A stretch of 64,000 bases of DNA. Source: Flavobacteriaceae bacterium PS02334. Its GTDB lineage: Bacteria > Bacteroidota > Bacteroidia > Flavobacteriales > Flavobacteriaceae. Made by a program: the position numbers and the translations under genes. This document shows positions 6,256-34,776 of this stretch, piece after piece. Each line of letters begins with the position of its first letter. Positions within the stretch are counted from its first letter, which is position 1. Location: the NCBI GenBank assembly GCA_029959295.1, contig JASCOH010000007.1:186001-250000 (forward strand), read 5' to 3'. The notes beneath the pieces are model-generated. The model ran no database searches, was not told the origin of the DNA, and saw only the letters and a list, made by a program, of their open reading frames with translations.

Positions 6256-6945
6256 TTATACAGCTTTAGGATCTAAAGCTATAGCAGGACTCATTGTTGA
6301 TGAGATGTGGATACTTTTAATGTAAGTACCTTTCGCTGCAGTTGGTTTCATTTTGATTAATGTTTGAATAATTTCATGCGCATTGTCGGTAATCATGTCA
6401 GCTCCAAATGAAACTCTTCCGATTCCTGCATGAACGATACCAGTTTTATCAACTTTAAAGTCAATTTTACCAGCTTTTACTTCAGTTACAGCTTTTGCTA
6501 CATCCATAGTAACAGTTCCTGTTTTAGGATTTGGCATAAGACCTCTTGGTCCTAAGATTCTTCCTAATGGACCTAATTTACCCATAACAGCAGGCATAGT
6601 GATGATTACATCAACATCTGTCCAACCGTCTTTGATTTTTTGTAAATAGTCATCCAAACCTACGTAATCAGCACCAGCAGCTTTAGCTTCAGCTTCCTTA
6701 TCTGGAGTAACTAATGCTAATACTCTAACGTCTTTTCCAGTTCCGTGAGGCAATGTTACTACACCTCTTACCATTTGATTTGCTTTTCTTGGATCTACAC
6801 CCAATTTAACAGCGATATCAACAGACTCATCAAATTTTGCAGAAGCGATAGTTTTGATTAATGCAGAAGCATCTTTCAAAGAGTAAAGCTTATTTTTTTC
6901 AATTTTAGATGCAGCCTCTTTTTGTTTTTTTGTCAATTTTGCCAT
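6256..6945 (-). CDS. rplA: 50S ribosomal protein uL1
   Basis: L1 builds the mobile L1 stalk on 23S rRNA at the ribosomal E site and in many bacteria represses the L11 operon. The protein has 229 residues. The family signature region ([19 protein letters not shown]) is intact. It follows rplK after only 8 bases, indicating translational coupling. No Shine-Dalgarno sequence precedes the ATG, as usual in this group. Confidence 0.99.
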
Positions 6946-6953
6946 GTCTTTTC

Positions 6954-7394
6954 TTAATTAGAAGGAGCGTCTCCAGTTACAGTTATACCCATAGATCTAG
7001 CTGTTCCAGCAATCATGCTCATAGCAGACTCAATTGTGAATGCATTCAAATCAGCCATCTTGTCTTCAGCGATAGCTCTAATCTGCTCAACAGTAACTTT
7101 CGCTACTTTTTTACGATTAGGCTCTCCTGAACCAGATTTCAATTTTGCAGCTTCTAATAGTTGAATAGCAGCAGGTGGTGTTTTTACAACGAAGTCAAAA
7201 GACTTATCTTTGTATACAGTAATTTGTACTGGTAACACTTTGCCAGGTTTATCTTGCGTTCTAGCATTGAATTGCTTACAGAACTCCATGATATTAACAC
7301 CAGCAGCACCCAGAGCAGGTCCAACCGGTGGCGACGGGTTCGCAGCACCTCCCTTAACTTGTAGTTTAACTACTTTACTAATCTCTTTAGCCAT
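6954..7394 (-). CDS. rplK: 50S ribosomal protein uL11
   Basis: L11 binds the GTPase-associated centre of 23S rRNA and is needed for the stringent response on stalled ribosomes. The protein has 146 residues. The N-terminal PPVGPALG motif and [11 protein letters not shown] segment, and the C-terminal RNA-binding domain ending [12 protein letters not shown], are intact. It lies 68 bases downstream of nusG and 8 bases upstream of rplA. Confidence 0.99.
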
Positions 7395-7462
7395 TGTTTA
7401 AAAATTTAACACATCATCATGGAAGCGATAGATGTGCGGTTTAATTATATGTGTAACAAAAA

Positions 7463-8017
7463 TTATACTTTTTCAACCTGCATAAAGCTCAATTCCAATG
7501 GTGTTTTTCTTCCGAAAATTTTCACCATTACTTCCAGCTTACGCTTTTCTTCGTTGATTTTTTCAACAGTTCCATTGAAACCATTGAAAGGCCCATCGAT
7601 AACCTTAATTGTCTCACCAAGAGTAAAAGGAATTGCGTGATGATTATCTGTTTTAACAGCTAGCTCATCTACTTTACCTAACATTCTGTTTACTTCAGAA
7701 AGTCTCAACGGCACAGGATCTCCGCCTTTTACTTCACCTAGAAAACCAATAACACTAGTTATAGACTTAATAATATGAGGTATTTCGCCGACAAGATTCG
7801 CTTCGATCATTACATAACCAGGAAAGTAGACTTTGTCTTTGCTGATTTTCTTTCCGTCCTTAACTGTCACTACTTTTTCAGTAGGAACAAGAACTTGAGA
7901 AATATAATCAGCCATTCCCAATCTGTTGATCTCAGTTTCGATGTAAGCTTTAACTTTATTTTCTTGTCCGCTTACAGCTCTGACAACATACCACTTTTTC
8001 ACATTATTATCTGCCAT
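7463..8017 (-). CDS. nusG: Transcription termination/antitermination factor NusG
   Basis: NusG binds the RNA polymerase clamp, supports processive elongation and links the enzyme to Rho or to the ribosome. The protein has 184 residues. The NGN domain (KKWYVVRAVSGQENKV, FPGYVMIE) covers about 8-120, and a KOW domain (IKVIDGPFNGFNGTVEKI) covers about 133-170. It follows secE after 7 bases, the nearly universal secE-nusG-rplK order. Confidence 0.99.
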   Translation of the reverse strand: MADNNVKKWYVVRAVSGQENKVKAYIETEINRLGMADYISQVLVPTEKVVTVKDGKKISKDKVYFPGYVMIEANLVGEIPHIIKSITSVIGFLGEVKGGDPVPLRLSEVNRMLGKVDELAVKTDNHHAIPFTLGETIKVIDGPFNGFNGTVEKINEEKRKLEVMVKIFGRKTPLELSFMQVEKV

Positions 8018-8024
8018 CTTTTAT

Positions 8025-8222
8025 TTAACCTTTTATCAAATTAAAGAAACCAGCCAATGCTTTTGCGAATAAATTGTCAACTCCCCAAGTAGCCAAAGCG
8101 AATAATACAGAAAAAACAGCGACAACAATTGTCAGACGCTGTACTTCTGCCCATTCCGGCCAGGTAACATTATTTTTTAATTCTCCGAATGCTTCGGATA
8201 TGTAATTAACAACTTTTGCCAT
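8025..8222 (-). CDS. secE: Preprotein translocase subunit SecE
   Basis: SecE is the small clamp subunit of the SecYEG channel in the inner membrane. From the ATG at 8222 it has 65 residues, with an amphipathic stretch ending WPEWAEVQRL and one membrane helix (TIVVAVFSVLFALATWGV). The longer open frame starting at 8267 is rejected because its first 15 codons lie inside the tRNA-Trp gene. The start lies 15 bases after that tRNA, so both are likely on one transcript. Confidence 0.97.
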   Translation of the reverse strand: MAKVVNYISEAFGELKNNVTWPEWAEVQRLTIVVAVFSVLFALATWGVDNLFAKALAGFFNLIKG

Positions 8223-8237
8223 TGTAATTTGTTTTTG

Positions 8238-8308
8238 CACGGGCGGAGGGATTCGAACCCCCATCAACGGTTTTGGAGACCGCTATTCTACCCTTGAACT
8301 ACGCCCGT
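8238..8308 (-). tRNA. tRNA-Trp (CCA anticodon)
   Basis: A complete cloverleaf reads on the minus strand: acceptor ACGGGCG pairs with CGCCCGT and the discriminator is G. The anticodon arm is GCGGT-CTCCAAA-ACCGT with anticodon CCA, and the T arm carries GTTCGAATC. It is 71 bases long and the 3' CCA is not encoded. It lies between the tuf terminator and secE. Confidence 0.97.
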
Positions 8309-8310
8309 TT

Positions 8311-8344
8311 ATTAAAAACCAGTAGCGCGATAAGGCGCTACTGG
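8311..8344 (-). terminator. Intrinsic terminator of tuf
   Basis: Bases 8319-8328 are the exact reverse complement of 8335-8344, with a 6-base loop. On the minus strand the GC-rich stem is followed by TTTTTAAT. It lies 22 bases after the tuf stop and just before tRNA-Trp. It should end or reduce tuf transcription before tRNA-Trp-secE-nusG. Confidence 0.85.
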
Positions 8345-8366
8345 CTTTATAAAATATTTATAGAAA

Positions 8367-9560
8367 TTATTCTACGATTTCAGTCACCTGACCTGCACCT
8401 ACAGTTCTACCACCTTCACGGATAGCAAAACGCAAACCAACTGTCATAGCGATTGGGCTTAACAAAGTAACATCAATTGTTAAGTTATCCCCTGGCATTA
8501 CCATCTCTACTCCTGCAGGAAGGTTAATAACTCCAGTTACGTCAGTTGTACGTACGTAGAACTGTGGACGGTAGTTATTATGGAATGGCGTGTGACGACC
8601 ACCTTCTTCTTTTTTCAAGATATAAACCTCTGCTTTGAATTTAGCGTGTGGTTTTACTGATCCTGGCTTAATGATAACCATTCCTCTTTTGATAGATTCT
8701 TTATCAATACCTCTTAACAATAAACCTACGTTATCTCCTGCTTCACCTCTATCAAGGATTTTACGGAACATCTCAACTCCTGTAATAGTAGAAGTCAATT
8801 TATCAGCTCCCATACCAATGATTTCAACAGCATCACCTGTATTAGCAATACCAGTTTCGATACGACCTGTAGCAACAGTTCCACGACCTGTAATTGTAAA
8901 TACATCCTCAACTGGCATCAAGAAAGGTTTTGCAGTATCACGAACTGGCTCTTCGATCCAGCTATCAACAGCTTCCATCAATTCAAGAATTTTAGGAACC
9001 CATGTAGCATCTCCATTCAATCCACCTAAAGCAGAACCTTGGATTACTGGACCATTATCTCCATCATATTCGTAGAAAGACAACAAGTCTCTGATTTCCA
9101 TTTCAACTAGCTCTAAAAGCTCAGCATCATCAACCATATCCACTTTGTTCATGAAAACAACCATTCTAGGAATACCAACCTGGCGACCTAAAAGGATGTG
9201 CTCACGTGTTTGTGGCATTGGTCCGTCTGTAGCAGCTACAACTAAGATAGCACCATCCATTTGAGCAGCACCAGTAACCATGTTTTTTACGTAATCCGCG
9301 TGACCTGGACAGTCAACGTGAGCGTAGTGACGATTAGCAGTTTCATACTCAACGTGAGATGTATTAATCGTAATACCTCTTTCTTTTTCTTCTGGAGCGT
9401 TATCAATCTGATCGAAAGATTTTGCTGCATTTTTAGAAAAACCTGCATCAGTCAATACTTTAGAGATTGCTGCTGTCAATGTAGTTTTTCCGTGATCCAC
9501 GTGTCCAATTGTACCTATATTTAAGTGCGGTTTGGAACGGTTAAAATTCTCCTTTGCCAT
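8367..9560 (-). CDS. tuf: Elongation factor Tu
   Basis: EF-Tu is the GTPase that delivers aminoacyl-tRNA to the ribosomal A site. Its 397 residues show the G motifs GHVDHGKT (about 19-26), DCPGH and NKVD in the GTPase domain (about 1-205), followed by beta-barrel domains 2 and 3. The C-terminal end ([22 protein letters not shown]) is typical. It stands behind three tRNA genes, as tufB does in enterobacteria, and ends at a strong terminator. No second copy is present in this window. Confidence 0.99.
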
Positions 9561-30752: not shown

Positions 30753-31703
30753 TTACAAAGAATAATTCAAATTGACAGACCAGCGATAGTTTGCTTCCAC
30801 TCGACCGCCTGTAAGATTTTGATTTATCGGCAGCATCGCATTTAATCCTACGGAAAATTTATCTTTTCCTGCTTCAAAACCAATTTTTCCGAAGAAAATA
30901 TCACCTTTTGTATCTCGAATATCTTCTTCGTATAATTTATTTGTTCCATAAACTTCGCCTGCGATTCCGGCCTGCGGGACAAGCGAAATTCCTTTAGCTT
31001 CAAATTGGTAAAACAAAGTACTTCCATAATTAAATTGGTTTCCAAATTGATAATGGTCGTCATTTTCTGTTTTGAAAGCATAATTTAGCATAGAATTCAA
31101 TCCGATTTTTTTATGCCTTACTGTGTATTCTGTTGCTAAGATATAATCCCAACTTCCTGTTCCTACTTGAAAACTAGGATTTACGCTGCCGTTGTTTTTT
31201 GAATCATATTTTCCCGTTGGCGCTTTTAAGCCGCCACCTAATTGAAATTGATGCACAAATTGCGCCGAATCAGATTTGGTTTCAAAAAGAGTATACAAAG
31301 CCAGAACAGTAATATCACCCAGACCATTGATTTTTTGCTCGCCCGTAGTCAATTGGCGATTATGAAAATGATAAGGAACCAAAGCGGAAATCTGAAGATT
31401 TTTCATTAACGGAATCCTAGCCCAAACTTGCATCGTGTTGAAATTTTCATCAATCCAAGGAGAATTATTAAAAAGTCCGTCACGGCTGGTATAGCTTTGA
31501 TTCATATAGCGAATTCCAACGAAATTTTGGTTGAGCATTGAACTGAAACCCATTCCTCCGCCACTTGCCGAACAACCACAAGCATCACAATCTTCTTCAT
31601 AAAAAAACCTTGCGTATTTTTTAAACGGATTCTGGATCGTATCTTCGGTATTTGCCGATAAAAACTGCGTTGCAAGGAGCAACAATAATAAATATTTTTT
31701 CAT
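30753..31703 (-). CDS. Outer-membrane beta-barrel protein with CDACGC motif
   Basis: A 316-residue exported protein with a signal peptide (about 1-17). A cysteine cluster at residues 39-44 (CDACGC) and a Gly-rich linker lead into a barrel domain (about 60-316) ending WSVNLNYSL. The barrel resembles the transporter/alpha-amylase-inhibitor-like barrel family often found beside MbnP and di-heme peroxidase genes; this association is from memory. It is 2 bases downstream of the peroxidase gene, so the two are co-translated. Metal handling through the Cys cluster is inferred. Confidence 0.72.
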   Translation of the reverse strand: MKKYLLLLLLATQFLSANTEDTIQNPFKKYARFFYEEDCDACGCSASGGGMGFSSMLNQNFVGIRYMNQSYTSRDGLFNNSPWIDENFNTMQVWARIPLMKNLQISALVPYHFHNRQLTTGEQKINGLGDITVLALYTLFETKSDSAQFVHQFQLGGGLKAPTGKYDSKNNGSVNPSFQVGTGSWDYILATEYTVRHKKIGLNSMLNYAFKTENDDHYQFGNQFNYGSTLFYQFEAKGISLVPQAGIAGEVYGTNKLYEEDIRDTKGDIFFGKIGFEAGKDKFSVGLNAMLPINQNLTGGRVEANYRWSVNLNYSL

Positions 31704-31705
31704 AA

Positions 31706-32749
31706 TTAAGTACGGAAATAAAATAACGGATCTTTGATATATTCTTCATCCGTCAAGGTTTTTAAGAAAGCAATTATGGCGTCTTTTTCTTCTTGTGAAA
31801 GGGAAATTCCAAGGACTCCATTTTGGTTCAAATGCGAATCTAAAGTTTCAGAATTCTGTACGCCATTCGAATAAAAATTCAGAACAGAAGCCAAAGAACC
31901 AAATCTTCCGTCGTGCATATAAGGCGCCGTCAAAGCCACATTTCTTAAGCTTGGCACTTTAAATTTATGACGGTCAGAAGCAAATCCGGTAACGGTTTCT
32001 CTTCCTAGATCATTTAAATTTGGATTTGGAGGCAGACCGTTGTTTCGGAAAGAATTATCAGTAAACAGATCTGTTTTATGGCAAGTCGAACATTTATTTT
32101 GAAACACATTCAAGCCTTGCAATTCTTGAGAATTTAAGTTTCCTCCTGCTTCATTTCTAGCATATTTGTCATACCGAGAATTGCTTGAAATCATCATCGT
32201 CATGAACTGCGCTAAAGCTTTCAACATATTTCCTGACGTAATTTGCCCTTCAAAAGCTTGATTAAACAGTTTTACATACTCTGGATCTTTTTTCAGTTTT
32301 TCCACAATATTCGCCAAATTTTCATCCATCTCAACCGGATTGTGAATTGGATTTATAGAAAGCATTTCAATAGAATTAGAAGCGCCGTCATAAAAATATT
32401 CACTCTGAAACGCCATGTTCTGAACTGCAGGAGCATTTCGAGTTCCAGCGAGATTGTCGATTCCGTGGCTAAAATCGTGTCCGTGGTGCGTGAATGCGTC
32501 AGCTTGTTCATGGCAAAACGAGCACGAAACCGTTCCGTCGCGGGAAAGTCTTCCGTCATAGAATAGTTTTCTTCCTAGCTCGAATCCTTTTTTTGTCGGC
32601 GGATTATTGGCAATATCTTGAACAACATCAGGAAAGTTTGATGGAATATTTACGGTCAATAATTCGTTGATTTCTGTGTATTCGCTGTCGTCGTCTTTCT
32701 GGCAGGAATAGAAAACAGAAATCAATAGTAAAAAGATTATTTTTTTCAT
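31706..32749 (-). CDS. Di-heme cytochrome c peroxidase, MbnH-like
   Basis: A 347-residue lipoprotein (signal peptide to Cys16, SC followed by QKDD) of the MauG/bacterial cytochrome c peroxidase superfamily. Two c-type haem sites are present: C76-S-F-C79-H80 and C220-S-T-C223-H224. The intervening region carries GTRNAPAVQNM and FYDGASNS, and the second domain ends with FKVPSLRNVALTAPYMHDG, both family hallmarks. MauG-type members oxidise tryptophan on partner proteins, and MbnH converts a MbnP tryptophan to kynurenine. Its place directly after a MbnP-like gene supports that role here; classical peroxide scavenging is the alternative. Confidence 0.88.
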   Translation of the reverse strand: MKKIIFLLLISVFYSCQKDDDSEYTEINELLTVNIPSNFPDVVQDIANNPPTKKGFELGRKLFYDGRLSRDGTVSCSFCHEQADAFTHHGHDFSHGIDNLAGTRNAPAVQNMAFQSEYFYDGASNSIEMLSINPIHNPVEMDENLANIVEKLKKDPEYVKLFNQAFEGQITSGNMLKALAQFMTMMISSNSRYDKYARNEAGGNLNSQELQGLNVFQNKCSTCHKTDLFTDNSFRNNGLPPNPNLNDLGRETVTGFASDRHKFKVPSLRNVALTAPYMHDGRFGSLASVLNFYSNGVQNSETLDSHLNQNGVLGISLSQEEKDAIIAFLKTLTDEEYIKDPLFYFRT

Positions 32750-32777
32750 AAAGTATAAGCGTTATACTTGGAATTGC

Positions 32778-32919
32778 CCCAGATGGAAGCGGAAACCCCG
32801 GAACTCAAAAGGCTATTTTTTCTTAATCATGCACAGCGACCGAAGGAAGCTCGTGCAGGATTTTAGAAAAAAAGCTTTTTGAGTGAGGAGTTGCAGCGCA
32901 CAGCTGGATCAGGCCCAAA
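32778..32919 (-). repeat. Dispersed intergenic element, copy 2
   Basis: This fills the spacer between the MbnP-like and peroxidase genes. It repeats in order the blocks of copy 1 at 18750-18914: GGAAGCGGAAACCCCGGA, GCGACCGAAGGAAGCTC, CTTTTTGAGTGAGGAGTTG and GGCCCAAAA. Copy 2 lacks the GC-rich terminator-like hairpin. It begins within 6 bases of the MbnP stop in transcription sense. Confidence 0.6.
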
Positions 32920-32924
32920 AAATA

Positions 32925-33743
32925 TTAATGATCGGCACCGCCAGCATGAACGTGATCGACTGTAAACATGGAAGTTGTGTTTTCAGCAATCGAAATTAAT
33001 TTGGCTCCGCCCATAATCGCAGCGCTTGTTTGTGCAGGATTCATTGCTTCTGAAAGTTTTACTTTTGTGTTACCGTCAAGGATTTTATTGGCATCAACAA
33101 TGAAGTGCACGCTTGGCGATTCAGTCTCGCGAACGCGCGCTGTGTTTGGAAAATCTACAGTAAATTCACGATAGTTGTCCGTTGCAGTATTGCTTCCTTG
33201 ATGTACTTGAAATGTTTTTTCGCCAGTCAAGGTTGGAGCGGTAAAAGATCCTTCAAAAACGATGAAACGGTAGCCTGTCGACCACGTCCAAGTCAAGTCA
33301 TTTGCAGCCGCTTCATCCCAAAAACTTTGCTGTGCCGTTTCGCCTTGGAGGTAGCGCTGTGAATCAACTCCGAGTCCAAATTTTATTTTTTTGTAATTGC
33401 CCGCAGGGATATTTTCTAGGTGAATTGTCGTCTGTTTTGTCTCTTCATTGATCACAAAATAGCTTGATGCTTTTGGATAAGCAACTTCAGCGCCGTTTTC
33501 ATCAATCAAGACAAAATTGCTTACTATATAATTGAATTTGTTTATTTTAAGCGTCTCTCCGTTGGAATTTGTGTGCGTTGAAACTCCTAAAATAAGGTCA
33601 TCTCCGTTTAAAGAATTATCGAAATAAAGCTCCATTTCACCGTTTCCAGAAACGGCTTGAGAACTGTCATCATCACTGCTACATGAAGCAAAAAAAGAAG
33701 CGAATGCCAAGATGGCTATAGTATTTTTCAATTGAAATTTCAT
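32925..33743 (-). CDS. MbnP-like copper-binding lipoprotein
   Basis: A 272-residue lipoprotein (signal peptide to Cys21, followed by SSDDDSS). The fold signature of the MbnP family is visible: NGEMELYFDNSL at the start, KINKFNYIVSNFVLID, NYKKIKFGLGVD, then LTWTWSTGYRFIVFEG at about 150-165 with tryptophans W152 and W154. A His-rich end (DHVHAGGADH) closes the protein. In characterised MbnP, copper binding depends on kynurenine made from tryptophan by MbnH. The partner gene lies directly downstream here. Which tryptophan would be modified is not known. Confidence 0.85.
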   Translation of the reverse strand: MKFQLKNTIAILAFASFFASCSSDDDSSQAVSGNGEMELYFDNSLNGDDLILGVSTHTNSNGETLKINKFNYIVSNFVLIDENGAEVAYPKASSYFVINEETKQTTIHLENIPAGNYKKIKFGLGVDSQRYLQGETAQQSFWDEAAANDLTWTWSTGYRFIVFEGSFTAPTLTGEKTFQVHQGSNTATDNYREFTVDFPNTARVRETESPSVHFIVDANKILDGNTKVKLSEAMNPAQTSAAIMGGAKLISIAENTTSMFTVDHVHAGGADH

Positions 33744-33881
33744 TTGTTTTATTTTTAAAGTTATAGGAAATTATACCTCGAAAATTGATTTATTTGCGAA
33801 GTAATTTTAAATTTTGGATGTAAATAATCTAGCCTGACACAATGATTTTGCGCCAATTGAAAAATTATTTTCGGTAAAACT

Positions 33882-34263
33882 TTAAGAAATGAATGAAGGA
33901 GGATGAAAAACAGAATTGCAATCTATGTGGGAATATAAATTGCTGTAAAAATTTAGAGGAGTTTTAGCAACAAATTGCTTTTCAGAACTAAAATCAAAAG
34001 AAGCTAATTCTTCAATAAATAAAACTTCAACTTCAGAATGGTGTGATTTTTTTTTCAGAAAGCGGTTTCTCATCTTCAGAAGCTTTTGCCAATTCTTGCA
34101 TCAAATGGCACTTTCCATTACAGTGCATTTCAGGCTTTTCTTTGTTGATACAAAGCACTTCAGAAATATATTCATAGTTGATGACATACTGAAAAACCGG
34201 AACAATTGGTTTCAGCAACATCATAAAAGAAACTATGAATAGGTACTTTCTCACAAAAGGCAA
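33882..34263 (-). pseudogene. Cys-containing membrane protein split by a frameshift at an A9 tract
   Basis: Two overlapping frames look like one gene. The first (34263-34033, 76 residues) has a membrane segment and a cysteine motif (C38, then C48-N-G-K-C52-H-L-M) and stops after KKITPF. The second (from about 34048 to 33882) continues with SHHSEVEVLFIEELASFDF to a plausible end FFHPP-like (VFHPPSFIS). They meet at nine A on the minus strand (T at 34047-34055). Eight A would give one 126-residue protein. A sequencing error, a real mutation or slippage are all possible. It precedes the MbnP gene by 138 bases. Confidence 0.7.
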
Positions 34264-34362: not shown

Positions 34363-34776
34363 ATGAAAAAATTAATTATTGCAGCAGTATTGATGATCGG
34401 AATGACATCTTTTGCACAAGAAAAACAAGCCGGAGAAAAAGGACACAAAATGGAAAGATTGACGCCAGCGCAAAGAAATGAAAAACATTTGCAAAAATTG
34501 ACTTCTGAACTTAGCTTGAATGAAAAACAGCAAAAAGAAGTTGGGACAATCTTAGCGGAGCAATCTGCAAAAAGAGAAGCAAAACATGAAGAAAGAAAAA
34601 AATTGACAGATGCGCAACGCGATGAAAGAAAAGCTGAAATGGAAGCTAATGATGCTAAAATAAAAGCAATTCTTACGCCAGAACAAACTAAAAAATGGGA
34701 AGAATTGAAAGCGAAAAAGAAAGAAGAAATGATAGAAAAACATCAAGATAGAAAAGAAAAAAGAGCTAAAAAATAA
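34363..34776 (+). CDS. Secreted Spy/CpxP-like helical protein
   Basis: A 137-residue exported protein with a signal peptide (about 1-18, ending SFAQ). A very charged, fully helical mature part carries LTPAQ and ILTPEQTKKWEELKAKK motifs, the LTxxQ pattern of Spy/CpxP periplasmic chaperones. In proteobacteria such proteins respond to envelope stress and copper, which fits the neighbourhood, but the match is by composition only. It lies divergent from the frameshifted Cys protein and 80 bases upstream of a second small secreted protein on the same strand. Confidence 0.68.
   Translation: MKKLIIAAVLMIGMTSFAQEKQAGEKGHKMERLTPAQRNEKHLQKLTSELSLNEKQQKEVGTILAEQSAKREAKHEERKKLTDAQRDERKAEMEANDAKIKAILTPEQTKKWEELKAKKKEEMIEKHQDRKEKRAKK

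Follow-up and report, generated by a model that had tools for sequence, protein, structure and literature searches.

Several described copper systems are close to a group of four genes lying at positions 30753-34263 of a 64,000-nucleotide stretch of DNA from Flavobacteriaceae bacterium PS02334 (assembly GCA_029959295.1, contig JASCOH010000007.1, positions 186,001 to 250,000; this whole stretch is hereafter called the window), among them (i) the MbnP/MbnH pair (TIGR04052/TIGR04039, PF20243; PDB 7l6g, 6e1c), (ii) the operons of the TonB receptor OprC, and (iii) the short leaders CruR and CutF. MbnPH pairs are conserved far beyond the methanobactin producers, and the MopE/SACCP and CorA/CorB systems of methanotrophs likewise place a copper protein beside a di-heme peroxidase, the copper site of MopE involving a Trp converted to kynurenine; the sequence of MbnP shows no marked resemblance to that of MopE or CorA (PMC3621798). 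For OprC, the copper ligands have been named as C143, M147, H323, and M325 (PMC8610252). CruR of Bordetella is an upstream open reading frame (uORF) of the DUF2946 type, where a CXXC motif senses copper and a C-terminal RAPP arrests translation, Rho termination following, and operons carrying OprC-type receptors, SCO, PCuAC, and MbnPH-like genes begin with its relatives (PMC9426467). CutF of Rhodobacter is similar to CruR with the opposite sign; the CutF-like class, i.e., proteins of <150 amino acids (aa) with an N-terminal export signal, two consecutive prolines (PP) in the last 15 residues and a same-strand gene downstream, is put at 40% Bacteroidota after normalisation (PMC9973294). In a 2025 survey, various lineages have RAPP/RGPP uORFs related to copper, the Bacteroidota being among the exceptions, and TonB-related uORFs are universal in Gram-negatives, CruR arrest being shown in vitro (PMC12992588), and clusters of Pro-ended uORFs upstream of sec-type genes are described for Bacteroidota only (PMC10987492).

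Respective to these systems, the window set is a stand-alone MbnPH pair, ordinary by family, in a conserved setting undescribed in the literature searched, i.e., searches whose coverage left out most subscription journals returned no paper on the four-gene set or on its small family. An earlier note on this DNA, made from the sequence, had called the set stand-alone; no methanobactin genes were noted, and stand-alone MbnPH is not new in itself (PMC3621798). With a rough probability of 0.55, the set is read here as a copper-handling operon, most likely for acquisition, combining an MbnH-modified MbnP, a channel and a leader. Its main features are as follows:

33882..34263, minus strand: small Cys-motif gene, frameshifted, probable copper-responsive leader (two open reading frames, 34263-34033 and 34073-33882)
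32925..33743, minus strand: MbnP-family lipoprotein, 272 aa (PF20243 match, fold)
33288..33290, minus strand: W152 codon of MbnP, probable kynurenine site (alignment, MbnH-loss comparison)
33201..33203, minus strand: H181 codon of MbnP, near-invariant His (alignments)
32946..32954, minus strand: H264-V-H266 codons of MbnP, HxH tail tracking the barrel (covariation)
31706..32749, minus strand: MbnH-like di-heme peroxidase, 347 aa, with a lipoprotein-type N-terminus by eye (PF03150 and TIGR04039; best PDB match 6e1c)
32510..32524, minus strand: heme motif CSFCH, residues 76-80 (sequence)
32078..32092, minus strand: heme motif CSTCH, residues 220-224 (sequence)
31871..31873, minus strand: Y293 codon, placed opposite the axial ligand Tyr294 of MauG by alignment end coordinates (alignments)
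30753..31703, minus strand: outer-membrane beta-barrel, 316 aa (homologues, structure model)
31572..31589, minus strand: CDACGC motif, residues 39-44, within the barrel's N-terminal tail (alignments)

The four open reading frames (ORFs) of the earlier note, with their motifs, all lie within 30753-34263 on the minus strand, in the order small gene, mbnP, mbnH, and barrel, and the family scores of the pair are beyond chance, MbnP reaching 153.5 bits with PF20243 (curated cut-off 27) and the peroxidase 187.9 bits with CCP_MauG, PF03150 (cut-off 25.6). This arrangement recurs across the order Flavobacteriales (sampled as 119 genomes; 247 genomes for the phylum). Precisely small-mbnP-mbnH precedes the barrel in 65 of the 80 named barrel loci, the remaining 15 comprising several cut by contig ends, four without mbnH, one without the small gene (L138; L-numbers designate fetched loci, where genes were labelled with hidden Markov models (HMMs) built on those loci) and some with extra copies. 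Outside the order, the full set is also found in L236 and L241. The organism's own genome (4.59 Mb, 69 contigs) holds a single MbnP, that of the window. The barrel itself is present in 35/119 genomes of the order, and the gene co-occurrence that the earlier note had proposed as a check holds for its closest homologues, each of the 20 barrels with E<1e-100 lying no more than 3 kb from MbnP and 4 kb from the small gene. Of the 16 weaker barrels, none has MbnP within 3 kb, and eight lie no farther than 1 kb from the small gene, a count for which 36 barrel and 79 small-gene places were computed and part of the MbnP places were compared by eye, none within 3 kb; the small gene and barrel thus also exist together without MbnPH. 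In most such loci seen, a gene for a small protein comes next (DUF4625 above the cut-off in L072 and sub-threshold in L073; L074 without a family).

The MbnP fold, on which the identification in the earlier note depended, was recovered, in that profile and fold searches matched solved MbnP while a single-sequence PDB search gave no match. Together with the family matches and 6e1c as best PDB match of the peroxidase, this supports the MbnP/MbnH identity of the pair. Both proteins nonetheless score below the NCBIfam equivalog cut-offs, MbnP with 43.6 bits for TIGR04052 (MbnP_like_WxW; cut-off 140) and the peroxidase, filed as MbnH-like, with 225.7 bits for TIGR04039 (cut-off 362.85), and therefore form a divergent branch. 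On the tree, Flavobacterium beibuense has the closest MbnP (67% identity). As read from its sequence, the window MbnP has a single Cys and lacks the four-Cys motif given in the molecule name of 7l6g, and the window set differs from described MbnP/MbnH by adding an HxH tail and a barrel. The peroxidase is of MbnH/MauG type, exhibiting two CxxCH motifs and Tyr in place of Met at the second heme; position 293 is Tyr in 128/134 rows, and alignment end coordinates place it opposite MauG 294 and cytochrome c peroxidase (CCP) 275, which we take to be the second-heme axial ligands. Of note, the window MbnH contains no Trp anywhere, residue 120 (32390-32392) being Tyr where 61/134 rows have Trp.

The earlier note had pointed to W152 or W154, both within LTWTWSTGYRF, as the residue that MbnH may modify; this WxW-type motif does align with the MbnP family structure 7l6g, and natural losses of MbnH favour one of the two, suggestively. 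When barrel loci are taken as fetched loci holding a barrel anywhere, rows with <1300 bases downstream being dropped, residue 152 is W in 97/99 MbnPs having MbnH within 1.5 kb, the other two being unaligned. In the four barrel loci lacking MbnH (L091, L111, L139, and L155), whose mbnP and barrel are separated by 22 to 145 bases, residue 152 is respectively S, P, G, and W, and W154 is retained in 4/4. In the MbnP tree, L091, L111, and L139 each occupy a branch of their own, surrounded by relatives that have MbnH. L091 and L111 have lost H181 as well, and the L139 genome yielded a 599-aa reading frame but no match the size of MbnH. Where MbnH is present and the barrel absent, W152 is found in 27/30 and W154 in 19/30. 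Because W152 is lost in three of the four barrel loci without MbnH and W154 kept in all four, these alignments suggest W152 as the better candidate for the MbnH target.

At the end of MbnP, the tail DHVHAGGADH varies together with the barrel. Scoring HxH in the last 28 residues and setting three rows near contig ends apart, HxH occurs in 97/100 MbnPs with an intact CDxCGC barrel downstream (the three others being one fragment and two second MbnP copies), in 0/2 with an altered barrel motif (L037, L065) and in 4/40 without barrel (three unrelated His-rich ends and one true DHVH, in L253). On a 77-row MbnP tree, for which a stricter HxH pattern counted L111 (AHVH) as lacking it, the joint HxH/barrel label changes at least eight times. 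L036 with L038, and L042 with L046 and L047, have neither barrel nor HxH, and L037 has neither HxH nor intact barrel motif; all are nested among rows having both. The remaining rows without a barrel fall into outer clades and contribute little to the covariation case. Instead of the barrel downstream, L042 and L047 carry an OprC-type receptor upstream, and L046 has a gene of similar size. Since HxH covaries with the intact CDxCGC barrel, this pattern suggests that the MbnP tail hands copper to the barrel or docks on it, and it bears out, with the 20 close homologues beside MbnP, the proposal of the earlier note that the barrel is an additional partner.

Neither the barrel nor the small protein has a Pfam or NCBIfam family above cut-off, and a sequence search for a solved barrel relative gave nothing credible. 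A structure model of the barrel (mean predicted local distance difference test (pLDDT) 75.2, with residues 17-52, which hold CDACGC, under 50) matched FapF 5o67 (E 1.5e-11) and the COG4313 channel 4rl8 (E 1.0e-9) in Foldseek at 13-14% identity and a TM-score of 0.60-0.61 by query length, i.e., a fold match over most of the chain. This fold is presumably 12-stranded. In the proposed model, and with no more confidence than the whole, the barrel would then be a FapF/COG4313-like outer-membrane channel, distinguished by its CDxCGC tail, its copper-gene context and the low identity. C39-D40-x-C42 is invariant among 13 divergent barrels. With 316 aa and no TonB plug match, the window barrel is not an OprC-type receptor, a class marked by a TonB plug and CxxxM-HxM. 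A variant set is seen in L065 (4422-8633), i.e., mbnP, mbnH, an HMA protein, a redoxin-like protein (by eye) and a barrel whose mature end begins near GCCSGG.

The small gene belongs to a family present in 48/119 genomes of the order, with 78 genes, and in 99/247 genomes phylum-wide. Its members are ~118-150 aa at most loci (longest listed, 185 aa), and in the A2 alignment (22 sequences, 32% mean column identity) only C35, C45, G47, C49, P119, and P120 are invariant. Among 131 ORFs, most of which came from barrel-anchored loci, the Cys motif is found in 129 and PP near the end in 129, the two being 63-72 residues apart in the 127 with both. PP lies in the last ten residues of 160/161 family ORFs of 90-160 aa compared with 1/366 other ORFs of the same loci, a count favoured by the family HMM having seen PP. 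Of 164 cases examined, 162 have a neighbour downstream, on the same strand in 162/162. Length, PP, and downstream gene agree with the CutF-like class in most relatives (some reaching 185 aa), the export signal being judged by eye and PP being out of frame in the window.

The genes that follow are mostly of copper type. In a tally read by hand, allowing a few intervening short ORFs and with families checked on examples, the 78 genes precede MbnP (29), a receptor with CxxxMD, i.e., OprC-type (19), a YHS/SCO1/SOD cluster (13), the barrel (8), a DUF4625-like gene (3), another TonB receptor (3), a DJ-1-like gene (2) or a contig end (1). At 20 hand-picked loci outside the order, the next gene is a receptor with CxxxMD (5), another receptor (5), MbnP (4, two with the full set), the barrel (2) or unclassified (1), one locus meeting a contig end and two (L248, L253) having no small ORF. 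Three clusters (L042, L043, L173) contain two copies of the small gene. In the organism's own genome, a second, intact leader at L071 (G000:C33:548000-567000, 6911-9410) directly precedes an OprC-like TonB receptor (E 2.8e-41 with OprC) in which C143, M147, H323, and M325 are all aligned, and which thus is of OprC type; the L042 receptor matches OprC with E 5.8e-8. OprC relatives are encoded in sister operons that begin with a member of the same small family, the receptor's place being taken in the window set by a barrel of channel type that lacks a TonB plug. In L090, the receptor and then PepSY_TM come after the small gene, which matches the order cruR-crtA-bp2921 (PMC12914433).

Other contexts were seen. 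In L083, L087, and L089, the small leader and an OprC-type receptor lie near genes resembling nirK/nos by eye. In L174 (2788-3717) and L176 (2664-3563), the leader precedes a DJ-1/PfpI-family gene (by Pfam in L176 only) and a receptor-like gene, with no obvious copper link. HYC_CC_PP (NF047658) occurs beside mbnP/mbnH in other Flavobacteriales (L051:7402-7830, L051:11143-11580, L054:7199-7642); preceding mbnP in L051 and L054 with a Cys motif and late PP by eye, it is possibly another leader family.

By analogy, the small gene is probably a copper-responsive leader family, unnamed in Pfam and NCBIfam. Like CruR and CutF, it is a short, putatively exported ORF with a Cys motif and a C-terminal Pro-Pro at a near-fixed distance, placed before OprC-type or CrtA/PepSY receptors, SCO, and MbnPH-like genes (PMC9426467). 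It differs by C-x9-C-x-G-x-C instead of CXXC, a spacing of 63-72 instead of 45, and [HRK]PP instead of RAPP. As controls, OprC relatives of Thioclava (L171) and Cupriavidus (L172) are preceded, in the corresponding position, by DUF2946-type proteins ending in RGPP and RAPP, respectively, the L172 leader scoring above the Pfam DUF2946 cut-off and the L171 leader just below. No DUF2946 (PF11162) homology was detected in any of the 22 A2 members or 119 genomes, the hhalign probability against two DUF2946-type leaders being 0.8%; should the small family operate in the manner of CruR at all, it would therefore not itself be a CruR.

In the window, the small membrane protein of the earlier note exists as ORF 34263-34033 (76 aa), with an N-terminal hydrophobic segment and C-x9-C-N-G-K-C, but is part of a longer gene only. 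The conserved C-terminus FHPPSFIS stands in another frame (ORF 34073-33882), the two frames parting at an A9 run where L091, L093, L096, and L118 have eight bases amid the same surrounding codons. The shift is either an assembly error or a loss of PP in this strain.

Taken together, the following course is proposed. MbnH, an exported di-heme enzyme, would oxidise its partner, the lipoprotein MbnP, at W152, the product probably being kynurenine, and the modified residue together with conserved His, H181 among the candidates, would form a copper site. The CDxCGC tail of the barrel may exchange copper with the HxH tail of MbnP or be docked by it, the barrel standing in for the TonB receptor of OprC type that sister operons encode. 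The nascent leader would sense copper via C-x9-C-x-G-x-C, pause at the C-terminal [HRK]PP and set downstream expression. Because of the OprC and CruR parallels, import appears as the probable direction of copper movement.

Several points weigh against this reading, besides the origin of the 131 ORFs, the circularity of the PP count, the divergence of the pair from the equivalogs and the lack of DUF2946 kinship or an RAPP ending noted above. (i) The window leader is frameshifted with PP out of frame. (ii) A same-strand gene ends <80 nucleotides upstream of the small gene in 31/164 cases, so that it is not always first in the transcript. (iii) RNAalifold, run without controls on 36/70 spacers between small gene and mbnP, predicted no consensus pairs, a weak negative. 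(iv) Eight of the 16 weaker barrels adjoin neither MbnP nor small gene. (v) Among MbnH-less barrel loci only L139 looks MbnH-free, the L111 genome having a second complete MbnPH pair and Flavobacterium zepuense (L091) an MbnH-like gene on another contig, while L155 retains W152 though MbnH-less, its genome having another MbnPH pair. (vi) Outside barrel loci, W152 is retained in 3/4 MbnPs without MbnH within 1.5 kb (L053, L059, L070), the fourth, a second one in L053, being unaligned at 152; in L070, MbnH ends the same gene run slightly beyond 1.5 kb, and L053 and L059 have no such MbnH. These last cases therefore lowered confidence from 0.58 to 0.55.

Regarding alternatives, the earlier note had held the small Cys protein to be an envelope partner, a fourth part equal to the others; this was rejected, as the gene heads many copper-type operons without MbnPH, is doubled in single clusters (L042, L043) and has a leader-like build. 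A related proposal, i.e., a trans-acting periplasmic or inner-membrane copper chaperone receiving from the adjacent OprC-type receptor or barrel, is doubtful but fares best. It accords with the N-terminal hydrophobic segment, the conserved Cys motif and the mostly copper-type neighbours, and might account for every outer-membrane partner having its own copy. Nevertheless, outside the Cys motif only two late Pro, 63-72 residues away, are invariant, for which a chaperone has no obvious need; two copies occur in one cluster, and the gene also precedes SCO1-cluster or DJ-1-like genes.

Barely behind, and unlikely, is an operon for copper export or detoxification, where a FapF-like barrel would secrete copper or copper-loaded MbnP, MbnP acting as a sponge. 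FapF, the best structural match, is titled a polypeptide transporter in the PDB, an E1-E2 ATPase (heavy-metal pump by eye) lies near the set in L045, and leaders of the CutF type can have a positive effect with copper (PMC9973294). The uptake reading preferred here is favoured over it by the same leader family and MbnPH pairs sitting with relatives of OprC, which takes up copper (PMC8610252), and by the repression of cruR-bfrG by copper, likewise of P. aeruginosa oprC with its cruR homologue upstream (PMC9426467).

A shade less likely still, the HxH/CDxCGC and W152/MbnH correlations could reflect shared ancestry only. Barrel-type MbnPs do cluster on the tree, many barrel-less ones falling in outer clades, and only four MbnH-less barrel loci are known, MbnH-less MbnPs elsewhere mostly keeping W152; yet the three W152 changes led to different residues on separate branches, and HxH is missing again in L036 and L038, in L037, and in L042, L046, and L047, as is the barrel or, in L037, the intact barrel motif. 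That MbnH is an ordinary bacterial CCP removing H2O2, its link to MbnP being regulatory only, is improbable, for while it belongs to the CCP_MauG superfamily, scores below the MbnH equivalog cut-off and is missing next to some MbnPs that keep W152, it has Tyr and not Met at 293, 6e1c and not a CCP as best PDB match, and W152 lost in 3/4 barrel loci without it.

The remaining features of the locus are as follows:

34047..34055, no strand assigned: run of nine T on the plus strand (A9 in the gene), where the frames of the small gene part (comparison with relatives)
33744..33881, minus strand: spacer between small gene and mbnP, 138 bases (ORF ends)
32750..32924, no strand assigned: repeat element between mbnP and mbnH, 175 bases (genome copies)

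Five other partial copies of this repeat (69-82% identity) exist in the same genome. At 34363-34776, the divergent neighbour is a Spy/CpxP-like small protein (LTXXQ and Spy matches below threshold).

For the Bacteroidota at large, the operon reading can be extended, tentatively, to a TonB-independent outer-membrane copper gate, whose CDxCGC tail would take copper from the HxH of kynurenine-activated MbnP, and which would be interchangeable with OprC-type receptors, both kinds of operon being switched by arrest leaders (C-x9-CxGxC ... [HRK]PP) arisen apart from CruR. The leader idea is not wholly new for this phylum, in which CutF-like proteins have already been counted in number (PMC9973294); the small family could extend metal-sensing arrest peptides there. 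The natural losses of MbnH in barrel loci give a handle on which Trp MbnH oxidises, pointing to W152, and the covarying metal motifs would tie an outer-membrane channel to MbnP in the copper uptake of a major phylum.

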